DNA from: a virus
Length of the DNA: 26,461 nt
Reading direction: 5' to 3' (one strand)
Virus record (IMG/VR): IMGVR_UViG_3300032296_000876
Coordinates: 1 to 26,461 of that record
Positions 1,694 to 24,498 of the stretch are shown piece by piece. Each line of letters starts with the position of its first letter. Position 1 is the first letter of the stretch. The position numbers and the translations under genes were made by a program. Below the pieces are notes generated by a model. That model saw only the letters and a list, made by a program, of their open reading frames with translations, did no database searches and was not told the origin of the DNA.

Positions 1694-1987
1694 TTATTGC
1701 AAAACATTCAAAATAGATTTTGCTTTTGTCATCTCTAAAGTTTCTGTTTTGATTGCGTTGATACATTCATCTGCATACCAAAGTTGAGCAAGCAATTCCA
1801 CATCTTCGGTAGGAACATTAGCAATTACTTCGTGTTGATTTTTTGAACCTCTATGCTCAAGCAATCTTGCAGGCCATTCCTTTGGAAGTGTTTTTAGAAT
1901 ATCTTTGTACAAATCAATGTTTTTTTGGTATTGCTCTACTTCTTCAATGCGCGCTTGCAATGGTGTAATTTGTGTTTCTTCTGTCAT
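1694..1987 (-). CDS. Hypothetical protein, alpha-helical, acidic
   Basis: 97 aa with a strong start signal (AAAGGAGCAA five bases before ATG). The sequence looks mostly helical: 'ARIEEVEQYQKNIDLYKDILKTLP' is a probable coiled coil, followed by 'KEWPARLLEHR' and a second helix 'ETLEMTKAKSILNVL'. I do not recognise the family. There is no membrane segment and no Cys/His metal site. It lies between the beta-propeller gene and the lysis cassette, so it could be a virion accessory protein or a chaperone for the propeller/fibre. The assignment as a real gene rests on its length, ribosome-binding site and fit in the gene array. Confidence 0.7.
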   Translation of the reverse strand: MTEETQITPLQARIEEVEQYQKNIDLYKDILKTLPKEWPARLLEHRGSKNQHEVIANVPTEDVELLAQLWYADECINAIKTETLEMTKAKSILNVLQ

Positions 1988-2008: not shown

Positions 2009-3019
2009 TTAGATGAATGCAACGCCTTTGGCATTTCCCGTAGGTAAGGTTGCAGGATTAGCATACTTTGTTCCAAAACCTGATGACCAAGGGTAAGCCG
2101 TGATGTAAGGTGACGAGTCGTGAGCAACCGCAATTGCATCCCCTGATGGTGAGAAATCAACGCTATTTCCCGTGCCTGTCGGCAAAGTTGCAGGGTCGGC
2201 ATATTTTGTACCAAAACCTGATGACCAAGGGTAAGTAGTAATGTATGGAGATGAAACGTGAGCAACCGCAATTGCATCACCTTGAGGTTTGAATTTAACT
2301 CCGTATCCAGAAAGTGATGGTAAGGTTGCAGGATTAGCATACTTTGTACCAAATCCTGATGACCAAGGGTAAGCGGTGATGTATGGAGATGAGCTATGGC
2401 TAACCGCAATTGCATCACCTGCTGGTGAGAAATCAACACCATTTCCCGTGCCGGTTGGAACAGTTGCAGGGTCGGCATATTTTGTACCAAAACCTGATGA
2501 CCAAGGGTAAGCAGTAATTCTAGGTGATGTGTCGTGAGAAACGGCAATTGCATCCCCTTGAGGTTTGAATCTAACCCCGTATGCTGAGCCTGTTGGAAGG
2601 GTTGCAGGATTAGCATACTTTGTACCAAATCCTGATGACCAAGGGTAAGCGGTGATGTATGGAGACCCACTACTAGCAACCGCAATTGCATCGCCTTGTG
2701 GTTTGAATGCAACTCCGTATCCAACGGCACCTGGAACAGTTGCAGGGTCGGCATATTTTGCACCAAAACCTGATGATGACCAAGGGTAAGCGGTAACATA
2801 TGGGGATAAAACGTGAGCAACGGCAACTGCATCGCCTTGTGGTTTGAATGTGACTCCGTATGCAGTAAATGTTAACAAAGATGCAGGATTAGCATACTTT
2901 GTACCGAATCCTGATGACCAAGGATAAGTAGTGATGTATGGAGATGATTCGTGAGCAACGGCAATATAAACTAACAGTGGTTTGCTACTTGCAATCACTC
3001 CTGCAATGTTGTTAAGCAT
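2009..3019 (-). CDS. Seven-repeat beta-propeller tail/adhesin protein
   Basis: 336 aa from the ATG at 3019. This ATG overlaps the stop of the upstream gene (TAATG) and has AGGAG ten bases before it; a start nine codons earlier is possible but lacks a good ribosome-binding site. The protein is almost entirely seven copies of a 46-residue unit, core 'SPYITAYPWSSGFGTKYA(N/D)PATLP', then 'GV.F.P.GDAIAVAH'. DNA copies begin at 138-nt steps with one 141-nt step (an extra Ser codon in blade 2). The unit has the strand-turn pattern of a WD40-like propeller blade. The N-terminus (LLVYIAVAHESSP) supplies the strand missing from the last copy, which stops after GVAFI, so the ring can close by 'velcro'. 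The tail-gene context suggests a virion-displayed binding protein. The target is unknown. Confidence 0.85.
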   Translation of the reverse strand: MLNNIAGVIASSKPLLVYIAVAHESSPYITTYPWSSGFGTKYANPASLLTFTAYGVTFKPQGDAVAVAHVLSPYVTAYPWSSSGFGAKYADPATVPGAVGYGVAFKPQGDAIAVASSGSPYITAYPWSSGFGTKYANPATLPTGSAYGVRFKPQGDAIAVSHDTSPRITAYPWSSGFGTKYADPATVPTGTGNGVDFSPAGDAIAVSHSSSPYITAYPWSSGFGTKYANPATLPSLSGYGVKFKPQGDAIAVAHVSSPYITTYPWSSGFGTKYADPATLPTGTGNSVDFSPSGDAIAVAHDSSPYITAYPWSSGFGTKYANPATLPTGNAKGVAFI

Positions 3020-3408
3020 TACCCAATTGCTCCTATTACATACCAAGTATCTGTGCCAGTCTTAATACAGACCGCACTGCGATACTGCGCAAGTGTAGGC
3101 TGAGCAAGTGTCGCGCCTGCTGAAAGAATTGTAGTTGTGCCTGATGTAACGGCTGAGATTGTGCAGAGTCCTACACCTTTGTTAAGAATAGTGATAACTG
3201 ATCCAACAGGGATGGCTGCCGTAGCATTAGTAGGAATCTTTAAAGCTACTGCCGTGGCTTTGTTCATTGGCACAAGAACCTGATATGAGTCAGCAAGTGT
3301 TATTGTGTAATCATTGGTTTGATCTGCTTTGATTTCAAAAGTCACTAAGCCGTTATAGTCAGCCGCCGTAAAAATATCGCCTGTTACTGCCGGAAAGCCT
3401 GTTGCCAT
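3019..3408 (-). CDS. Phage virion/tail structural protein, small beta domain
   Basis: 129 aa, start supported by AGGAGAAAACA before ATG. The sequence is Thr/Ala/Val-rich and beta-prone. It begins 'MATGFPAVTGDIFTAADYNGLV', then 'DYTITLADSYQVLVPMNKATAVALKIPTNATAAIPVGSVITILNKGVGLCTISA', and ends 'TWYVIGAIG'. This 'TLADxyxxV.....a....v.IPtNatxaipvGs.I.i.n.G.G..tI' pattern occurs repeatedly in phage tail fibre and virion proteins, where it forms a short beta-rich module. It lies between the minor tail protein and the propeller gene and overlaps the latter by one base, suggesting coupled synthesis. A likely role is a tail-tip adaptor or fibre module for the propeller protein. There is no enzyme motif. 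Confidence 0.68.
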   Translation of the reverse strand: MATGFPAVTGDIFTAADYNGLVTFEIKADQTNDYTITLADSYQVLVPMNKATAVALKIPTNATAAIPVGSVITILNKGVGLCTISAVTSGTTTILSAGATLAQPTLAQYRSAVCIKTGTDTWYVIGAIG

Positions 3409-3417
3409 TGTTTTCTC

Positions 3418-4662
3418 CTAGTATCCCATTATTGATTGACCAATTACGCCATAGGTTGATGACCCGATAATCATACCTTCAACGATAGGTTCAAGTGTTG
3501 TTACTGTGCATTTCATTGAATTAGGGGTGATATCCCAAGCCAAGCCCTGTACCTGCAAGGTTTTGACGATTGTACTGCCGTCTGGCTGAACGTTAGTGAT
3601 CTTGACGTTATCAAAGTAATCAAGGCCAATCATTGTGTCGGTTGGTACATCTGTGTCCAATAGATCAACAGTCATGGCATCAATGCGAATAGTGGTTTCT
3701 TTACGGGTAGCAACGTAAATCTTGGCTGCATCTAATACCTGCGCATCTGTCTGAGCTATGAGGTTGGTCTGATTCATGCCATGTGGAAAGTATCGAGCAA
3801 TGGATGCATTATCAAAGGCACTCTGCGTTACCCCGCCAATACGCGTAAAATCGCATGAATTTATGATGAGTTTATCGTCAAAGGCAAAAACTAGATTTGA
3901 GTATGGGATACCCGTGGTCTGATCAAACTCAATAGGTGTAACCGATAGAGAACCGACTACATCTGCTCGATCTTTAAATTCTATCGCGCCGTTTGACCGA
4001 ATAAATAGCGCCCCTTGTTCACTAAATTCGGCGTTTTTCAAAGCATCTAATGATGATCGAGATGTGCCAGGGTCTGCCTGAACTGTGGTTAATCCAGTAT
4101 CAATGATTCGCATTGAGGATGGAAATGATACTTGATCTAAGATTTTTGTGACACGCGTACCGGTAGTTTCGCCAGCAGTTGCCCCTGAAACTGTAGAGAT
4201 ATTGGCCAAGTTAAATAGACGAAAAGCATCTGAGCAGACAATATCTACATAACCTGTTTCCTGTCCTTTTGGATAGGTATAAACATAATCTTGAACATAA
4301 CCCGAAAATAAAAATTCTTGAGTTGTAGCAGTAGTAGCCGCTACTCGGATTTTTCTCAAAGGTGCCAAATATCCAAAATAGGGGCTTTGAACGTTCTGAG
4401 GGTTAAAGTTAGAATCAGGGTCTAAAACGCGAACAGTGCAAGTGCCAGCCTCATAAGTGTCACGCTGAATGTTACGTCCACGCTTAATGACTATCTGACG
4501 AGTTACATCGCTAAGATCAATAACAGGTTCTGCCACCTCACTTGATGCAAACTGAGATACGCCAATAATACCGTTAAGGCTATCTCCTATAGTAAATGCA
4601 AATGCAAAAGTTGCGCCTTGGCTAAAATCAAAGCTAACTGAAATTGTTGCAGGCAGGGTCAT
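3418..4662 (-). CDS. Minor tail protein (tail tip/baseplate component)
   Basis: 414 aa. The first gene after the tape measure, where siphoviruses encode distal tail and tail-associated proteins. The N-terminal third has 'DVTRQIVIKRGRNIQRDTYEAGTCTVRVLDPDSNFNPQN..SPYFGYLAPLRKIRVAA', followed by 'FLFSGYVQDYVYTYPKGQETGYVDIVCSDAFRLFN'. This 'GTCtv.v.D....fnP.n....Y.g.l.p...i.v.......lF.G.i' pattern is typical of actinophage minor tail proteins related to the gpD/gp27-like hub fold. The rest is beta-rich with no protease or hydrolase motif. It overlaps the tape-measure stop by 4 nt (ATGA) without its own ribosome-binding site, so it is probably translated by coupling. It likely caps the tail tube and carries the receptor-binding parts encoded downstream. 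Confidence 0.78.
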   Translation of the reverse strand: MTLPATISVSFDFSQGATFAFAFTIGDSLNGIIGVSQFASSEVAEPVIDLSDVTRQIVIKRGRNIQRDTYEAGTCTVRVLDPDSNFNPQNVQSPYFGYLAPLRKIRVAATTATTQEFLFSGYVQDYVYTYPKGQETGYVDIVCSDAFRLFNLANISTVSGATAGETTGTRVTKILDQVSFPSSMRIIDTGLTTVQADPGTSRSSLDALKNAEFSEQGALFIRSNGAIEFKDRADVVGSLSVTPIEFDQTTGIPYSNLVFAFDDKLIINSCDFTRIGGVTQSAFDNASIARYFPHGMNQTNLIAQTDAQVLDAAKIYVATRKETTIRIDAMTVDLLDTDVPTDTMIGLDYFDNVKITNVQPDGSTIVKTLQVQGLAWDITPNSMKCTVTTLEPIVEGMIIGSSTYGVIGQSIMGY

Positions 4663-6392
4663 ATTGCAAACGACCCCTGAATTCGACCTGTATTAGAAGA
4701 TGACCCAGAAAGCGATGCACTGAGTAATCCTTGACGAATAGCCTCAGTTAATTCTTGATTTGTTAAAACTGACCCATTGACTGTGACATAAACATCTCCG
4801 CGACCAGAGGCTGCAATGCTATATTCGCCTAGACCAAGATAATCTATGTAAGTTTTAGGGGTAACAACAGTGGCACCACCACCCGCACCTGCACCCGCAC
4901 CTGCACCCGCACCTGCATCAGCGCCAGCACCTGCTCCTGCGCCTGCACCTGCACCTGCTCCTGCACCTGCGCCTGCTCCTGCTCCTGCACCTGCGCCAGT
5001 ACCGCCACGATCATTTGTAAAACTTAAAGCAGCAATGCGTTTTGCCTCAAGTTCTAAAGCTGCAAGATAATCGCCCCACTTGGCAAAAGGATTTTTTGCA
5101 TCTGGCATATTTTGTAGGAATGTAGCCAACATAGATGTTTGGCCTTGAGCCTCGCCAAGTTTTTTTGCTAAGAACTCAGCCGCACTAACGTTTTCATCCA
5201 AAATAGCAAGTTGAAGTCTAAGACGGGTTCTTTCTTCTTCTGTAATTTTACCTTGTAATGCTGCAAAATTTTGAATGTAATCAAGATCAAAAATCTTAGA
5301 TAATTGTTTCATCTTTTCAGAGGCTTTTTCTAAAGCAGCCTTTTTCTTAGCATCTGCAAGACTTTTCGCCTGCGCTCTTGCTAATTCCTTGGCACGCTTG
5401 GTTGCTGCTGCTTCTGCCGCTTTACGAGCTGCATCATTAGGGTCAATATATCCTGGACCTAGTGCAGAGGATGGATAGCCACCCATTCCTGGCGTTGCAC
5501 CTGCACCTAATTTAGAAAGTGCCTCAAAAAGACGAATGAAAATTCCAGTATTAGGTAAAGCTCTTAAAATTGTTCCTTGATTTCGAGTTAAGAAGTCAAG
5601 CCCTGGAATCTGTTTAATCTTATCAATTAACACTGCAATGCCATAAATTGCATCGGCAGTTTGTGTAGCAAAAGTAGCCATAGAATCGGCCAAAGGTTGG
5701 ATAGTGTTACCTTCACCTGAGAGCAATGAAAGACTATCAACTAAGCCTTTGCCAATTGTTTCTTGAGCCTCGCCTGCGGCGGTGGTAAGCAATTCCATCT
5801 TGCCAGCATAAGTCGTAAGGTAGGCCGCATTTGCGCCAGTAAATTGTTTAGTGAGTTTTTCCTGAACATCTGCAAAACTCATTGCCTTTAATTCAGCCTG
5901 AGAAAGTCCTAGTGAATACTTGCGAAGGCCGCGAGTCTGACCAACGTATGCCATACTCAAATCTGAGACTACGGTTTCAAAATCAACGCCAGAACCGCGT
6001 GAAATATCTAAGGCTTGAGTAAGTAATTCGGTGGACTTAGTGACTGAGCCTGTAGTCTGCAATAACTTCTGCATACTCGGCCTAAGCTGATTGTCCGTGA
6101 CACCTGATGCTTGAGATAACTGAGAAATAAATTGTTCAATGCGTGGTGTTTCAAAGGCAAGCCCTAAGTTCTTTACCGATTGGGCTAGTTGAGTTGCAGC
6201 CTTCTCATCCTCAATAAATGCTTTTGATGCGTTCTTGGCAAACTTGAGAAGTTGTTGCGCTCCAAATACTCCGGCAAGGGTGCTACCTAATTTTTTAACG
6301 CTTTTGTCTAGTGCGCTAGTGGCTTTGCCGGCATCCTTAAATGCTTTGTTGCCCTTAAACTCACCGACAATCGTGGCGCGTAATTCAGCCAT
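4659..6392 (-). CDS. Tail tape measure protein
   Basis: 577 aa, mostly helical. The N-terminus (MAELRATIVGEFKGNKAFKD, then SALDKSVKKLGSTLAGVFGAQQLLKFAKNASKAFIEDEKAA) is typical of tape measure proteins. Residues about 310-370 are an Ala/Lys-rich coiled coil. Residues about 463-506 are an almost pure Ala-Gly alternation, a flexible tract. The C-terminus returns to ordered sequence (YIDYLGLGEYSIAASGRGDVYVTVNG). The length is modest for a siphovirus, implying a short tail. It sits after the tail-assembly chaperones and before the minor tail protein, as expected. No peptidase or transglycosylase domain is seen. The start has GAGAGG upstream and overlaps the previous stop by one base. Confidence 0.88.
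   Translation of the reverse strand: MAELRATIVGEFKGNKAFKDAGKATSALDKSVKKLGSTLAGVFGAQQLLKFAKNASKAFIEDEKAATQLAQSVKNLGLAFETPRIEQFISQLSQASGVTDNQLRPSMQKLLQTTGSVTKSTELLTQALDISRGSGVDFETVVSDLSMAYVGQTRGLRKYSLGLSQAELKAMSFADVQEKLTKQFTGANAAYLTTYAGKMELLTTAAGEAQETIGKGLVDSLSLLSGEGNTIQPLADSMATFATQTADAIYGIAVLIDKIKQIPGLDFLTRNQGTILRALPNTGIFIRLFEALSKLGAGATPGMGGYPSSALGPGYIDPNDAARKAAEAAATKRAKELARAQAKSLADAKKKAALEKASEKMKQLSKIFDLDYIQNFAALQGKITEEERTRLRLQLAILDENVSAAEFLAKKLGEAQGQTSMLATFLQNMPDAKNPFAKWGDYLAALELEAKRIAALSFTNDRGGTGAGAGAGAGAGAGAGAGAGAGAGAGADAGAGAGAGAGAGGGATVVTPKTYIDYLGLGEYSIAASGRGDVYVTVNGSVLTNQELTEAIRQGLLSASLSGSSSNTGRIQGSFAI
4873..5004 (-). repeat. Ala-Gly codon repeat tract in tape measure gene
   Basis: About 130 bp of alternating GCA/GCN and GGT/GGC/GGA codons, with one Asp replacing a Gly-side residue. 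It encodes the (Ala-Gly)n tract of the tape measure protein. The hexamer-like repeat makes the opposite strand look like a Pro-Ala ORF. Such tracts can change length by replication slippage. Confidence 0.8.
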
Positions 6393-8873: not shown

Positions 8874-8985
8874 GCTGTTTTCTCGTTTCTACTTTGGGAA
8901 CCATTGCGCGTTCAAGTGCAGGGATAGCGGTTGCGGTTTCCTTCGATTTTACCTTAATTTTCAAAATTCTTTTTAGAAGTTCCAT
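8860..8985 (-). CDS. Small basic 41-aa protein
   Basis: A 41-codon ORF, MELLKRILKIKVKSKETATA followed by IPALERAMVPKVETRKQRGDN. It overlaps the glycosyltransferase end by 13 nt and the connector start by 14 nt, filling the only gap between them. It is strongly basic with an amphipathic N-terminal helix. No family is recognised. Similar short basic ORFs occur next to capsid and connector genes in actinophages and may bind DNA or the portal. The start signal is weak (AGGCAG), so I give it moderate confidence. Confidence 0.5.
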   Translation of the reverse strand: MELLKRILKIKVKSKETATAIPALERAMVPKVETRKQRGDN

Positions 8986-9650
8986 AAATCGTGCTGCCTA
9001 TCACTTAATAAATAACTCTTTGAGTGAGGCAAGATCGCCCCTGTGTTCACATAGATTGGGAAACCAAGGGAACGAACACGCCGGCAGAATTGCAGGTCCT
9101 CGCCTATCCAATCACCGTTTAATGGGCCATCCCAAAACCAACACCAGTCTGTGCCTTGGTGTGAATCGGCATTAGCTTGCATTGTTTCAAATACGCTACG
9201 GTGAACTAGCAGGCAACCAGTACCTGCTGCATCTACTTGAAAAACTGAATCTTTGTCGTACTTATCAAGCGGAATAAAACCTTCAGGGGCATCCATAAAA
9301 ATTGTCGGCATTGGCCGTGGGTAAGGATTGCCATTATCAAAACTAGCAAAGACAAGCCCTGCGACAATTGGGCGGTCTTTTTCGTGCGCCGTTTCAGTTA
9401 ACTTATCAAATGCCTCAACCGTGAGAACTTCATCTGAGTCCATCATCAAAAGCCAATCGGACTTGGTTTCTAAAAACTGCTTAACTACACGATTGCGTTG
9501 CTTAGATAAAAGCCCTGAGCCTCTTACGCGAACAAATGTGCCAAGGCGTGATGATCTAGAAAGTGCAATTTGAATAAGGCTAAATGCAAACTCGCCATTG
9601 ACTGTGCCTGGGTCACAAGTGCCAATTGATACTTTATGAGCTGATTTCAT
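8973..9650 (-). CDS. Glycosyltransferase family 2-like enzyme
   Basis: 225 aa. A GT-A fold pattern: an N-terminal strand (KVSIGTCDPGTVNGEFAFSL), 'LSKQRNRVVKQFLET' before 'SDWLLMMDSDEVLT', where Asp71-Ser-Asp73 is the DxD metal/nucleotide-sugar site. 'VDAAGTGCLLVHRSVF' at about 140-154 and 'WIGEDLQFCRRVRSLGFPIYVNTG' at about 181-204 follow, the latter holding the usual acceptor-site Glu-Asp. His209 follows. No membrane segment is present, so it is cytoplasmic. It lies between the capsid and connector genes, which suggests it glycosylates a virion protein, but modification of DNA or host surface cannot be excluded. Its ribosome-binding site lies in a hairpin. Confidence 0.82.
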   Translation of the reverse strand: MKSAHKVSIGTCDPGTVNGEFAFSLIQIALSRSSRLGTFVRVRGSGLLSKQRNRVVKQFLETKSDWLLMMDSDEVLTVEAFDKLTETAHEKDRPIVAGLVFASFDNGNPYPRPMPTIFMDAPEGFIPLDKYDKDSVFQVDAAGTGCLLVHRSVFETMQANADSHQGTDWCWFWDGPLNGDWIGEDLQFCRRVRSLGFPIYVNTGAILPHSKSYLLSDRQHDLWNF

Positions 9651-21011: not shown

Positions 21012-21141
21012 TTATGTATCCGTTCGTTGTAAGGAATTTGATCAGGAACTTTGCCATCGCCCCAGGTGCATCAGGCAGTGCATATTCATACCCTGCCCAC
21101 AACCCGTAGGCCAAACCTTCTTGCAATGTCTTTTCGCTCAT
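21004..21141 (-). CDS. Small 45-aa protein between methyltransferase and primase-helicase
   Basis: 45 codons, MSEKTLQEGLAYGLWAGYEY then ALPDAPGAMAKFLIKFLTTNGYIND. The start overlaps the methyltransferase stop (ATGA) and the stop overlaps the primase start by 8 nt, so it is a link in the operon. Aromatic and partly hydrophobic but not clearly membrane-spanning. No family recognised. The coupling supports a real gene. Confidence 0.65.
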   Translation of the reverse strand: MSEKTLQEGLAYGLWAGYEYALPDAPGAMAKFLIKFLTTNGYIND

Positions 21142-22454
21142 AAATCCAACTGCTCATCTTTGTCGGCAAGAGCGAACTCAATCCGTGCCTTTGCAATCGG
21201 GATGTATTCGCCCGTCAACTCCATACCAATGAAATCAAAACCTTCATACGCACAAGCCTTGCCGGTGCTACCTGAACCAAGGAACGGGTCAAGCACTGTG
21301 CCATTTGGCGGTGTCACCAAGCGCACAAGATACTGCATCAGTGATGTTGGTTTTACTGTTGGGTGGTGGTTATTGCGACTTGGATTGATGAAAGTTGCAT
21401 CAACACATTCGCATCCTTTCATTTGAGGTGTATTGCAACTCGCACAGATTCTTGCCAAACCGTTGCCTTTGGCACCAATCTCTTTTGCCTCAAAGCCATC
21501 AAGCCCTTCATTGCGATCACGCTTTGATGCCTTGGCGCAGTAAAAGAATCGAGCGGCGCTGCCACTGTCTGAGAAACCGTCAGCAGCATTTTTCACACCT
21601 GCAAGCCCTACTGAGTTTTCAGATGCTCCACCTTTGCGAAAACCTGAAACTTTGCCACTGCCTGTTGCTTTTGTATCAGGAAACAAATCAACAACCTCAT
21701 CGCTGCCATCGTGAATAAAATTGGCAGGCCATCGGCCTGCATCTAATTGCTCAACATCAACCTTGCCACCAAATCCCTTGCCGTATATTGGCGTGCTATT
21801 GGGAACAAAGTTTGAACCACTTGTTCCACCCTCACTGCCAACTCTTGACCCATCAATGTTCAAACCGCCAGTGCCGTGAATCAGCACGTTGTTGGCAACG
21901 GTGCCAATGAGAGGCTTGCGAGCTAGAACCATTGGTTCGTGTGCGGGCTTCAGTGCCGTGCCCCAGCCATCCCATTGCTGCGCGGCGGGGGTAACTGAAT
22001 TGTCAGAATACCTGTTCCATTCAGTTGTAAATCTATTTTGCGCGCCTTGTTCAACATTTGATTTAGTCATTCCTGAACCCGAATGAGTACCAATAACCTC
22101 GCGCTCTGCACCTGCTGCCTTATCAATTCCCTTGCTGATGTTGTGCGACTTAGGAAACCCCGACCCATAAACCCACATAATTTGATCACGAATCTCAAAG
22201 CCTGCATCCTCAATAGCAACTGCCATTCGGTGATAGGTGCGTGAGCCACTGAAGGCGATCAAGTGGCCGCCAGGTTTAAGAACGCGCACTGCCTCTTTCC
22301 AAGTGTTTACATCAAAGGCAACGCCACTTGCATCCCAACTCTTGCCCATAAATCCCAATTCATAAGGTGGGTCAGTCACGATTGCATCCACCGAGTTTTC
22401 ATCAAGTGTTGCCATTAACTCACGGCAATCACCCTGCAGGATATTGTATTTCAT
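21138..22454 (-). CDS. DNA amino-methyltransferase, beta class (N6-adenine or N4-cytosine)
   Basis: 438 aa. Catalytic motif IV, DPPY at 28-31 in 'IVTDPPYELGFMGKSWD', comes first, and the AdoMet-binding motif I, PFLGSGSTG at about 390-398, comes last; this order defines the beta class. 'VRVLKPGGHLIAFSGSRTYHRMAVAIEDAGFEIRDQIMWVYGSGFPKSHNISKGID' is typical of phage members. The long middle part should hold the target-recognition region and includes a Cys cluster (CASCNTPQMKGCEC). DPPY favours N6-adenine. It probably protects phage DNA from host restriction. No cognate nuclease is seen. The start overlaps the C5 methyltransferase beta part (ATGA). Confidence 0.88.
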   Translation of the reverse strand: MKYNILQGDCRELMATLDENSVDAIVTDPPYELGFMGKSWDASGVAFDVNTWKEAVRVLKPGGHLIAFSGSRTYHRMAVAIEDAGFEIRDQIMWVYGSGFPKSHNISKGIDKAAGAEREVIGTHSGSGMTKSNVEQGAQNRFTTEWNRYSDNSVTPAAQQWDGWGTALKPAHEPMVLARKPLIGTVANNVLIHGTGGLNIDGSRVGSEGGTSGSNFVPNSTPIYGKGFGGKVDVEQLDAGRWPANFIHDGSDEVVDLFPDTKATGSGKVSGFRKGGASENSVGLAGVKNAADGFSDSGSAARFFYCAKASKRDRNEGLDGFEAKEIGAKGNGLARICASCNTPQMKGCECVDATFINPSRNNHHPTVKPTSLMQYLVRLVTPPNGTVLDPFLGSGSTGKACAYEGFDFIGMELTGEYIPIAKARIEFALADKDEQLDL

Positions 22455-22984
22455 TCATTCCCCACCATTCGCTTGATTATCCACTCAACCACCGGCACTG
22501 CTACCGCGTTGCCACATTGCTTATATCTATTGGAGTCAGCTTGATCGGCAGTCCAATCATCAGGAAACCCCTGCAGGCGCTCACATTCCATTGGTGTTAA
22601 ACGGCGCACAGTTGATTGAGTTGCAACCGCCGGTGCTTGGCTTCGATCTAAAGTGTAAGCAGGCGCACCATCTGCGCCAATACCCAATCCGTTTTGGTGC
22701 TTTTCAATCTCTCTGCCATCGTCTATTGGGTAAACACTCAAACCTGTTTCAATAAATGAAGGTGGTTGCTGACTTGATTTGAGTGTTGGAGATACATTCT
22801 CAAAGGTGTTTGCATTACTTCCAAATTGAGTATCAAAAGCAATCGTTTCATTTGTCTCTGAATTATCAAAAATCATTGGCACATTCCCCCCGCCTGTTCC
22901 AAATTTTGCAACTACTGTTGGCACAATGCCATTTGTGTAAACTCGAACATCATTCATACGCGTGCCATCAATTATTAAAATCAT
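22451..22984 (-). CDS. C5-cytosine methyltransferase, C-terminal part (motifs IX-X and TRD)
   Basis: 177 aa from the ATG at 22984 (CAGG seven bases upstream). It begins MILIIDGTRMNDVRVYTNG, target-recognition-type sequence, and contains motif IX 'VRRLTPMECERLQGFPDDWT' and motif X 'QCGNAVAVPVVEWI', the C-terminal third of a C5-MTase. It is in the +1 frame relative to the N-terminal part and overlaps it by 17 nt. Either the enzyme is a natural two-chain MTase, as in M.AquI where the beta chain carries exactly these motifs, or a frameshift has split one gene, or +1 frameshifting joins them. Both halves keep their conserved motifs and the overlap is clean, which argues against long-standing decay. 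Confidence 0.78.
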   Translation of the reverse strand: MILIIDGTRMNDVRVYTNGIVPTVVAKFGTGGGNVPMIFDNSETNETIAFDTQFGSNANTFENVSPTLKSSQQPPSFIETGLSVYPIDDGREIEKHQNGLGIGADGAPAYTLDRSQAPAVATQSTVRRLTPMECERLQGFPDDWTADQADSNRYKQCGNAVAVPVVEWIIKRMVGNE

Positions 22985-23705
22985 CAACAACCTGCAAAAA
23001 GCCCGATGCTACTGCTTGGTTTGAACCTTGACCCTTGATTAAATCTGAAACTGTCAAGGCTGCAACAGTGCGACTTTCTCCAACGCTTGTTGCAGTTCCG
23101 TCGGCAGAACCTTTCCTCTTCCCGTTGCACGCCTCAAGATACCCTGCGCGGCCTTCACTGATAGAGAGTATTTCTGCAGGTGATGGCCCTGAGTTTCCAA
23201 GACATCCGACAATGAAGACTCTACGCCGGCGTTGTGGAACTCCAAAGTATTGAGCATCAAGCACCCGCCATCCCACGCGATACCCGCGTTGGACCAACGC
23301 TTCAATGACCACGGCCATATCTCTGCCCCCATTTGAGTTAAGTAAACCAGGCACGTTTTCGAGGATAAACGTTTGCGTTCTTGTTTCGTCAAGGATTCTG
23401 CAGATTTCCCAGAATAAACCACTGCGTTTTCCAGCCAATCCTGCACGCTTACCTGCAACGCTAAGGTCTTGGCAAGGGAATCCACCTGTAATAATTCCGT
23501 TGGCAGGGTCAAATCCTGCTGCTCTAAGTTGTTCACCTGTTACCCCCGTTATATCGCCAAAAATAGTTGAATCAGGAAAATGACGGCGTAACACATCCTG
23601 TGCCTTTTTATCAATCTCAACCGATGCAACAACCTTGACCCCTTGGCGTTCAAGAGCTAAATCAAAGCCACCGATTCCTGCAAATAAACTCACTGCTGTT
23701 TTCAC
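22968..23705 (-). CDS. C5-cytosine methyltransferase, N-terminal part (motifs I-VIII)
   Basis: 245 aa, GTG start with a GGGGGAG site. Motif I 'LFAGIGGFD' at 7-15 (AdoMet binding), motif IV 'GGFPCQDLS' with the catalytic Cys78, motif VI 'LENVPG' at 115-120 (Glu116), and motif VIII 'QRRRRVFIVG' at 158-167 are all present. The chain ends in 'NQAVASGFLQVVDDFNN' before motifs IX and X, which are in the next frame. Together the two parts supply a full motif set. The product would methylate cytosine in phage DNA and probably blocks restriction. Another ORF lies inside this gene at 23054-23536. Confidence 0.88.
   Translation of the reverse strand: MKTAVSLFAGIGGFDLALERQGVKVVASVEIDKKAQDVLRRHFPDSTIFGDITGVTGEQLRAAGFDPANGIITGGFPCQDLSVAGKRAGLAGKRSGLFWEICRILDETRTQTFILENVPGLLNSNGGRDMAVVIEALVQRGYRVGWRVLDAQYFGVPQRRRRVFIVGCLGNSGPSPAEILSISEGRAGYLEACNGKRKGSADGTATSVGESRTVAALTVSDLIKGQGSNQAVASGFLQVVDDFNN
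23054..23536 (-). CDS. ORF overprinted inside the C5-MTase gene, family-like sequence
   Basis: 160 codons in the +1 frame of the methyltransferase, GTG start with GGGGG six bases upstream. The last third, 'ESSLSDVLETQGHHLQKYSL' followed by 'SVKAAQGILRRATGRGKVLP' and 'TELQQALEKVA', resembles a phage protein motif ('SLSDiLEtg....ryyLS.kA..GILrRa..RGk.LP..L..ALe.va') that I recall in many genomes near Dcm genes. 'GGCLMLNTLEFHNA' matches its usual preceding segment. If real, both frames are under selection. A shadow ORF is the alternative: the motif could be the fixed +1 reading of conserved MTase DNA. Function unknown. Confidence 0.4.
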   Translation of the reverse strand: MNNLEQQDLTLPTELLQVDSLAKTLALQVSVQDWLENAVVYSGKSAESLTKQERKRLSSKTCLVYLTQMGAEIWPWSLKRWSNAGIAWDGGCLMLNTLEFHNAGVESSLSDVLETQGHHLQKYSLSVKAAQGILRRATGRGKVLPTELQQALEKVALLQP

Positions 23706-23872
23706 GGTTTACTCCCCCAACCTGTTCCCTTAAATATGGCACCAACTGGCGTATAAATCCGCACCAACGGCTTTTCACAATCCTCGCAATATGGCAAATC
23801 CTTGTTCTCAAATGAAAGATTGAGTTCAAAGGTGTTGCTGCACTGCTCGCATTTGAAATCATACAGTGGCAT
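23702..23872 (-). CDS. FmdB-type zinc-ribbon protein, 56 aa
   Basis: 56 codons, MPLYDFKCEQCSNTFELNLS then FENKDLPYCEDCEKPLVRIY and TPVGAIFKGTGWGSKP. 'MPlYdFkCeqC...FE......' with Cys8-X2-Cys11 and Cys29-X2-Cys32, then 'v.Riytpvg.iFKGtGW', is the FmdB regulatory-protein family signature. The zinc ribbon probably binds nucleic acid. It overlaps the upstream methyltransferase by 14 nt and the C5-MTase start by 4 nt (GTGA), so it is a true operon member. A longer out-of-frame ORF over the same region has no such signature and was not used. Confidence 0.85.
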   Translation of the reverse strand: MPLYDFKCEQCSNTFELNLSFENKDLPYCEDCEKPLVRIYTPVGAIFKGTGWGSKP

Positions 23873-24416
23873 TTATGCCTCGATTTTCAATTATCTGCGA
23901 AACCGCACCTGAACCGTAAAATAAATCATCAACCGTATCGCCATCCTGAAAACCCATTGCATCAAGAACCCAATCGGTCCATTCTTGAGGCTTGGCGCCA
24001 ACAAATCCATTCTGCTTAGGATTGGCAATTAAATAATCTTTCATTCTCTTGCCAGATTTCCAACCCTTACGATCTTTTGGCACTCGAACAATGACCGGTT
24101 CCCAACTTGTTGCAATGCGTGAGCCACTGGGAATAGCAATAGGTTTAATCCAACTCATCACGCGAATACCATTGCGTGAATCAGTTTCAATCACCTTCAT
24201 ATATGTGCTTAAACTGTGAACGGTTAGCGCAATCGCCCAACCGTCATAATCACGTTCTAATTGCTCAACAAGCTCTAAATGTGTTTTTGGGTCATCCCAC
24301 TTTTTTGCCTCAGGGTGTGAATCTGCTCTGCCAATGCCATTACCGTCACCACAACCATCGCCATACCACCGATTTGCACGGCCTAAATATGGCGGGTCTG
24401 CAATTGCTAACTTCAT
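23859..24416 (-). CDS. Short DNA amino-methyltransferase (MT-A70/N4-type)
   Basis: 185 aa from the ATG at 24416, which has GGGGAACAG before it; the longer frame from a TTG lacks support. Motif IV DPPY at 7-10 (IADPPYLGRANRWYGDG) lies at the very start, and motif I-like 'DDLFYGSGAVSQ' near 163-174 lies near the end. The order IV then I is beta-class, but the protein is short and has little space for target recognition. 'MKDYLIANPKQNGFVGAKPQEWTDWVLDAMG' is a conserved-looking middle segment. It is the third methyltransferase in the cluster and probably adds to restriction evasion. Confidence 0.8.
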   Translation of the reverse strand: MKLAIADPPYLGRANRWYGDGCGDGNGIGRADSHPEAKKWDDPKTHLELVEQLERDYDGWAIALTVHSLSTYMKVIETDSRNGIRVMSWIKPIAIPSGSRIATSWEPVIVRVPKDRKGWKSGKRMKDYLIANPKQNGFVGAKPQEWTDWVLDAMGFQDGDTVDDLFYGSGAVSQIIENRGINATV

Positions 24417-24498
24417 CTGTTCCCCGTTCAATCGTCTTGCGTGAAATGTTTGGACTCGAACCAAAAAGCGCCTTCCCCAACGCCTGCAAACCTGCCAT
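24346..24498 (-). CDS. Possible small 50-aa protein upstream of methyltransferase
   Basis: 50 codons, MAGLQALGKALFGSSPNISR then KTIERGTDEV and a Cys/Trp-rich end overlapping the methyltransferase start by 71 nt. A GGGAG site is close upstream of the ATG at 24498. The first 30 residues look like a normal protein; the overlapping tail does not. It is the only good frame in the 140-bp gap between the ssDNA-binding and methyltransferase genes. The same DNA also holds a tRNA T-arm-like element, so coding is uncertain. Confidence 0.3.
   Translation of the reverse strand: MAGLQALGKALFGSSPNISRKTIERGTDEVSNCRPAIFRPCKSVVWRWLW

Follow-up and report, generated by a model that had tools for sequence, protein, structure and literature searches.

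The window, which is the whole stretch of 26,461 nucleotides analysed (positions 1 to 26,461 of the IMG/VR virus record IMGVR_UViG_3300032296_000876), carries on its minus strand a set of tail genes in the order tape measure, tail protein, 129-aa protein and propeller, as in the synteny with Pontimonas phage phiPsal1. The features of this region, with the evidence for each, are the following:

4659..6392, minus strand: probable tape measure protein (position and size against phiPsal1, by synteny)
3418..4662, minus strand: 414-aa tail protein after the tape measure (phrog_5313, E 5e-29; syntenic with the phiPsal1 'putative tail fiber')
3019..3408, minus strand: 129-aa conserved minor tail protein, proposed head-carrying adaptor (phrog_8780, phrog_21510; fused homologues)
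3017..3021, minus strand: TAATG stop/start overlap between the 129-aa gene and the propeller gene (sequence; also a -1 overlap in relatives with an exchanged head)
2990..3019, minus strand: N-terminal tag MLNNIAGVIA, proposed docking peptide (conserved across head types at the slot)
2990..3017, minus strand: exchange boundary (end of DNA similarity to phages with other heads)
2009..3019, minus strand: gene for a 336-aa beta-propeller of seven blades, proposed to be an exchangeable head for receptor binding (reading frame, repeat, AlphaFold2 model, profile match to 2ymu, Z score to 7bid)
1694..1987, minus strand: 97-aa companion gene, proposed dedicated assembly partner (co-occurrence of its family with propellers)

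The large terminase is closest to that of phiPsal1 (48%), whose gene order matches that of the window, and the host is probably actinobacterial, judging from terminase and gene order only. The probable tape measure gene contains a long (Gly-Ala)n tract at about 4870-5000, and the start of a collagen-like fibre gene with GPTGPTG repeats and matches to tail-fibre PHROGs lies at 330-1 on the minus strand, cut by the end of the window. A probable glycosyltransferase gene is found between the capsid and neck genes (8973-9650), a position occupied in phiPsal1 by GT2 and group I glycosyltransferases, and a probable DNA methyltransferase gene cluster, in which two frames overlap (22451-22990 and 22968-23705), extends from 21138 to 24464.

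The propeller frame runs from an ATG at 3019 to a stop codon at 2009-2011. An earlier TTG start, at 3046, is unlikely, since the ATG is the first codon of the conserved MLNNI tag. The encoded protein contains seven YPWS units spaced by 46, 47, 46, 46, 46 and 46 residues, so that each blade unit has 46 or 47 residues, with the signature SPxITAYPWSSGFGTKY, and the DNA repeat advances by steps of 138 nt and a single one of 141 nt, as an initial reading of the sequence alone had described. That reading had also called the repeat exact, which is wrong: compared pairwise, the window blades share 65-85% of their residues (mean 74%) and 68-86% of their nucleotides (mean 77%), and 27% of the positions at which the amino acid agrees differ in codon, so that the amplification is not very recent. 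A chance origin of the repeat is excluded by the existence of relatives encoded in more than 180 IMG/VR stretches. By repeat spacing and structure prediction, the blades are laid out as follows:

2873..2971, minus strand: blade 1, strands b, c and d (residues 17-49; predicted strands 17-23 and 29-34)
2732..2863, minus strand: blade 2 (residues 53-96; the 47-residue unit)
2594..2722, minus strand: blade 3 (residues 100-142)
2456..2584, minus strand: blade 4 (residues 146-188)
2318..2446, minus strand: blade 5 (residues 192-234)
2180..2308, minus strand: blade 6 (residues 238-280)
2042..2170, minus strand: blade 7 (residues 284-326)
2012..2032, minus strand: strand a of blade 1, which closes the ring (residues 330-336; predicted strand 330-335; in relatives, too, this strand is nearly always the last)

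When the window protein was aligned with 63 homologous seven-blade domains (64 sequences in all), AlphaFold2 returned a closed seven-bladed ring with a pLDDT of 95.5 and a pTM of 0.91, while the prediction from the single sequence was unusable (pLDDT 34). In the model the chain runs through strands b1, c1 and d1, six full a-b-c-d blades and a last strand, a1, which closes the ring. The sequence-only reading had proposed closure by the two termini, with the N-terminus supplying a last strand that the C-terminal copy lacks; the principle holds, and in the model the C-terminus provides the innermost strand a (330-335) and the N-terminus provides b and c (17-23 and 29-34) and a short outer d. The prediction is backed by Foldseek and VIA-align matches: the best structural match, with Z 39.8 and an rmsd of 1.7 across 284 residues, is the seven-bladed WRAP design 7bid, and fold Z scores to WRAP and WD40-type propellers lie between 35 and 40. 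Moreover, a sequence profile of the 64 propellers searched against PDB profiles finds 2ymu with E 1.7e-32 and the WRAP designs with E 2e-18 to 3e-12. The 7bid and 2ymu matches thus place the propeller in the WD40 superfamily, in the WRAP sense, the latter by profile homology. The window protein scores 11.6 bits against the canonical WD40 repeat (PF00400), for which the Pfam gathering cut-off is 27, and is therefore not filed as a canonical WD40 protein. Weak matches to Pfam DUF6597 and FGGY_C, both under the cut-off, were dismissed. As regards the distribution of variability, the six positions that vary most within the blade include four in the b-c and d-a loops, on one face of the ring; the a-b loop on the opposite face is variable too (blade positions 40 and 42), so that face-specific variability is modest and the idea of hypervariability strictly confined to one face is weakened.

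Closure at seven can also be judged from the number of blades in homologues, which were counted with a blade HMM in the best 80 of the more than 180 IMG/VR relatives, excluding L088, L095 and the more distant phage matches L083 and L084, whose blades are degenerate. Among 55 distinct complete proteins, 36 have seven blades, 13 have fourteen, two have twenty-one and one has seven with a shifted seam, which makes 52 of 55 compatible with closure. In the set fetched with the companion gene, multiples of seven account for 41 of 46 distinct complete proteins. In all the long proteins 3-7 extra residues lengthen the step between blades 7 and 8, and where there are twenty-one blades the 14/15 step is lengthened as well. 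Further, two proteins, one of them from a Planctomycetota genome (L097), are natural circular permutants in which the chain starts at strand d and stops at strand c; the seam thus lies between c and d, other than in the rest, while seven copies of each strand are kept:

L033 5934-6981: circular-permutant propeller
L097 7091-8960: circular-permutant propeller

The three numbers that do not fit, 5, 12 and 13, occur in one protein each (L011, L038 and L080). They were weighed as evidence against closure and set aside, since they sit in arrays of highly similar blades; in L011 and L038 assembly collapse or very recent loss is likely, given that near-identical relatives have 7 and 14 blades. A further array of 13 (L059) is cut by the end of its contig. 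Blade numbers, linkers and permutants support closure independently of the AlphaFold2 model, and together with the fold matches they uphold the proposal of a closed seven-bladed propeller; blade numbers that would speak against a ring are nearly absent.

The position of the gene is as informative as its fold. The 129-aa protein encoded just upstream is similar to the C-terminal domain of the minor tail proteins phrog_8780 and phrog_21510, resembles minor tail proteins of Gordonia phages and has at least 589 relatives in IMG/VR. The TAATG overlap suggests that it is translationally coupled to the propeller. In the loci examined, the gene that follows relatives of the 129-aa protein starts with the same overlap and with the tag MLNN[IV]xG, and residues 1-4 (MLNN) are nearly invariant in 69 distinct proteins at this position, the bodies of which fall into unrelated clusters. 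About 75 related phages have the 129-aa neighbour and the MLNNI tag with other heads, including Gly_rich_2 (PF21722, E 2.4e-10) and LamG-like domains (PF13385, E 9.4e-15), a family ending in ALYGIKG and another with similarity to phrog_10356; these loci were fetched by similarity to the 129-aa protein, and the frequencies of heads among them are not population frequencies. At DNA level, similarity across the 129-aa gene breaks off between 2990 and 3017 in 78 of the 80 alignments, and only L002, which also encodes a propeller, continues. The shared tag and overlap, the unrelated bodies and the sharp DNA boundary imply that several exchangeable heads exist, the propeller among them. What is established by exchange at the slot is positional equivalence, not function.

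The link with the tail is reinforced by gene fusions. In eight relatives (L013, L022, L039, L041, L044, L073, L077 and L078) a homologue of the 129-aa protein (hhalign 96.4%, E 1.1e-9; HMM E 1e-5 to 1e-7) forms a domain fused directly before the propeller, in some cases behind tail-fibre or collagen-like shafts. Propellers of relatives are also found fused to tail-fibre, collagen-like or fn3 domains, in some as the C-terminal tip of fibres, and in other phages a tail-fibre or tail-spike gene lies immediately upstream. Matches in bacterial genomes are at least partly in prophages: L085 adjoins a major head protein, and in L094 (Pararhodobacter sp. CCB-MM2), a likely prophage, the propeller stands amid a tail-fibre gene, an endolysin and an integrase, with the companion gene present. 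Gene order and exchange with other heads of receptor-binding type put the propeller at a receptor-binding position in the tail module and, with the shaft fusions, bear out the tail location first guessed from the sequence.

Downstream of the propeller lies the companion gene, whose 97-aa product is helical to judge by its composition; its family shows the motif EVxxYQxNIDNY..L..LLxSExxEQxKAxxIL. Of the 97 propeller genes whose downstream sequence is long enough, 87 are followed by a companion; of the ten that lack it, four are second genes of tandem pairs. Tandem propeller genes, with a companion after only one of them, are seen in L025, L043, L045 and L068. No companion accompanies the non-propeller heads of the 129-aa slot. 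The association also holds in the opposite direction: searching IMG/VR with only the companion gave 80 loci, 75 of them new, and propeller blades are present directly upstream in all 74 new loci having upstream sequence (four or more blades in 72; the remaining two are truncated where the contig ends). Each of the other classes of head has a downstream family of its own, one at 47 Gly-rich, one at 12 ALYGIKG and one at 5 LamG-like loci, and head-specific partner genes thus seem to be general at the 129-aa slot. The family that follows the Gly-rich heads (L100-L179) is marked by the sequence MAHYAFLDESKIVTQVITG...

No significant relative of the companion was found in Pfam, PHROGs or the PDB. 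Its gene order is that of a chaperone, directly downstream of the fibre gene and co-inherited with it, and the arrangement of propeller and companion is the one known from tail fibres and cognate chaperones that are exchanged together (PMC10579305). Since it matches no known chaperone family in those three databases, the companion is filed as working like a tail-fibre chaperone and not as a member of such a family; most likely it is a dedicated folding or assembly partner of this kind, and it could instead have a structural or regulatory role. That it is a virion component, such as a docking or capping subunit which stays on the propeller, is rather doubtful: its linkage to propellers is as strict as would be expected for a structural partner (74 of 74), but the frequent pairing and exchange of tail-fibre genes with cognate chaperones (PMC10579305), and the different small downstream gene found with each head class, are what would be expected of assembly partners too, and leave room for the structural role. 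More tentatively, the companion may be the founding member of a new family of dedicated partners that assist only highly repetitive propellers in assembly, perhaps by holding the blades in register for closure at seven; propeller and companion would then form a self-contained receptor-binding unit of sevenfold symmetry that moves between unrelated tails.

The reading that we consider likely is that the closed seven-bladed propeller of the WD40 superfamily acts as an exchangeable receptor-binding head of a non-contractile tail, with the companion as its dedicated assembly partner. On the evidence of gene position and exchange it stands very probably at the tail tip, as a host-recognition head. 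The MLNNI tag would attach it to the 129-aa minor tail protein translated just before it, and the ring would use its loops, with up to seven similar sites, to touch the host cell in a multivalent manner, most plausibly at a surface glycan. The companion would fold or assemble the propeller, and it is swapped along with the head between phages at the fixed boundary.

Receptor binding is what the sequence comparisons suggest, and two other functions have to be set against it. An enzymatic head, a depolymerase or lactonase-like hydrolase trimming the host surface instead of simply binding it, would agree with the presence of 6-phosphogluconolactonases among the fold neighbours (Z about 33) and with the fact that some phage propellers are enzymes, the K1F endosialidase for example, as cited in PMC4901313 and PMC10607447. 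Nevertheless, sequence profiles match only the non-enzymatic WRAP and WD40 propellers, no enzyme family exceeds its Pfam cut-off, and seven similar blades with small polar residues in the variable loops offer no obvious single asymmetric active site, all of which makes such an activity improbable. Propellers are also found in the nozzle proteins of T7 and SU10 (PMC10607447; PMC9509320), and by analogy the propeller might be imagined as a tail-tip component with a structural or decorative role, making no contact with the receptor. This is very improbable, as unrelated Gly-rich and LamG heads replace the propeller in otherwise similar phages, the propeller is the C-terminal tip of fibres in other phages, and a conserved structural part is not expected to be swapped in this way.

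The origin of the similarity between blades is a separate question. The statement of the sequence-only reading that near-identical blades are rare is outdated, because 10,474 highly repetitive propellers, viral ones included, have been listed (PMC9218822). With a median blade identity of 0.76, the window propeller is itself highly repetitive by the definition of Pereira and Lupas (median above 60%), and 86% of 72 propellers have a median above 0.6. Between propellers, blades in the same position score 0.641 against 0.636 for those in other positions, and 0.683 is found within one propeller; there is almost no positional orthology. Even in the nearest relative (L002, 84%) only window blades 3, 5 and 6 are clearly collinear (93-96%), while 1, 2 and 7 are not. 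In addition, two pairs of near-identical contigs differ by two blades, L010 (692-1733) with seven against L011 (1786-2548) with five, and L026 with fourteen against L038 with twelve. Amplification by pairs of blades is no rule: the odd/even alternation of blade similarity in the window has p about 0.03, but across 72 propellers p falls below 0.05 in just 2, as expected by chance.

The pattern is consistent with repeated amplification or conversion, and purifying selection towards a shared consensus contributes as well, the two being inseparable here. That the high similarity results mainly from recent amplification and gene conversion, allowing rapid tuning to receptors, is a possible explanation to which we incline less than halfway: the lack of positional orthology and the contigs two blades apart are in its favour, but codons differ at over a quarter of identical residues in the window, selection on a common consensus would look alike, and the whole-blade differences of metagenome contigs may be either true losses or assembly collapse. 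The blade turnover suggested earlier is accordingly supported in its lack of positional orthology, while its other sign, a blade number that varies between a few close relatives, could be mimicked by collapse.

Several components of this system have known counterparts. Highly repetitive propellers occur in all kingdoms, viruses included, and those of WD40 type peak at 7 and 14 blades (PMC9218822), while structures of WRAP proteins have been solved (PMC6805158). The window protein shares with the WRAP and highly repetitive WD40 propellers (2ymu; 7bid, 7bie, 7bif and 7big; 6r60; PMC6805158, PMC9218822) the seven blades, the closed ring, the high internal identity and the 7/14 peaks of its family; it differs in its sequence (about 20-24% identity), in its 46/47-residue SPxITAYPWSSGFGTKY blades and in its location in a tail cassette with adaptor and companion. 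Propellers have likewise been described in phage receptor-binding devices, namely those of phi11, PRD1 (P2) and phiKZ (gp131C) (PMC4901313). The phi11 receptor-binding protein Gp45 has a propeller domain in the host-recognition device of the tail, but as a five-bladed platform inside a large trimer with stem and tower, whereas the window family has seven similar blades, often as a separate polypeptide. PhiKZ gp131C (PDB 4GBF), as cited in PMC4901313, is a seven-bladed tail propeller at the baseplate periphery, suspected to be a receptor-binding domain; it is the C-terminal domain of a myophage protein, and it is compared with the window propeller by its description. In the Alteromonas phages A5 and V22, as here, a host-recognition protein and its small cognate partner are shared as a unit between distant phages (PMC10579305), although those fibres and chaperones belong to other families and the companion has no known relative. 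Finally, two 'WD40/YVTN repeat-like' proteins of uncultured Caudovirales belong to the same family: A0A6J5SDD4 (49% identity) and UOF80687.1 of MW202701, which has 14 blades and a companion. Both are annotated by fold only, and neither slot exchange nor companion is described there.

Near-identical propellers and phage-tail propellers are thus already known separately, and no account of a cassette of propeller and companion was found in literature searches restricted to open-licence papers. As far as these papers go, the exchangeable propeller-plus-companion cassette is new, as are the blade-number rule with its circular permutants, the exchangeable slot defined by a shared tag and the near-obligate companion family.

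Near-identical propellers are a textbook case of fold evolution by amplification, most of them with no known function. In the window family the propeller has a defined place, as an exchangeable phage head with a partner gene, and blade number (7, 14 or 21), seam position and dependence on the partner can be compared there in a system that is natural and under selection. Propeller and companion co-occur across hundreds of related viral contigs, and a likely role is proposed for two very common unannotated gene families of viromes, while the tag and slot may serve as a marker for receptor-binding proteins in uncultured phages.
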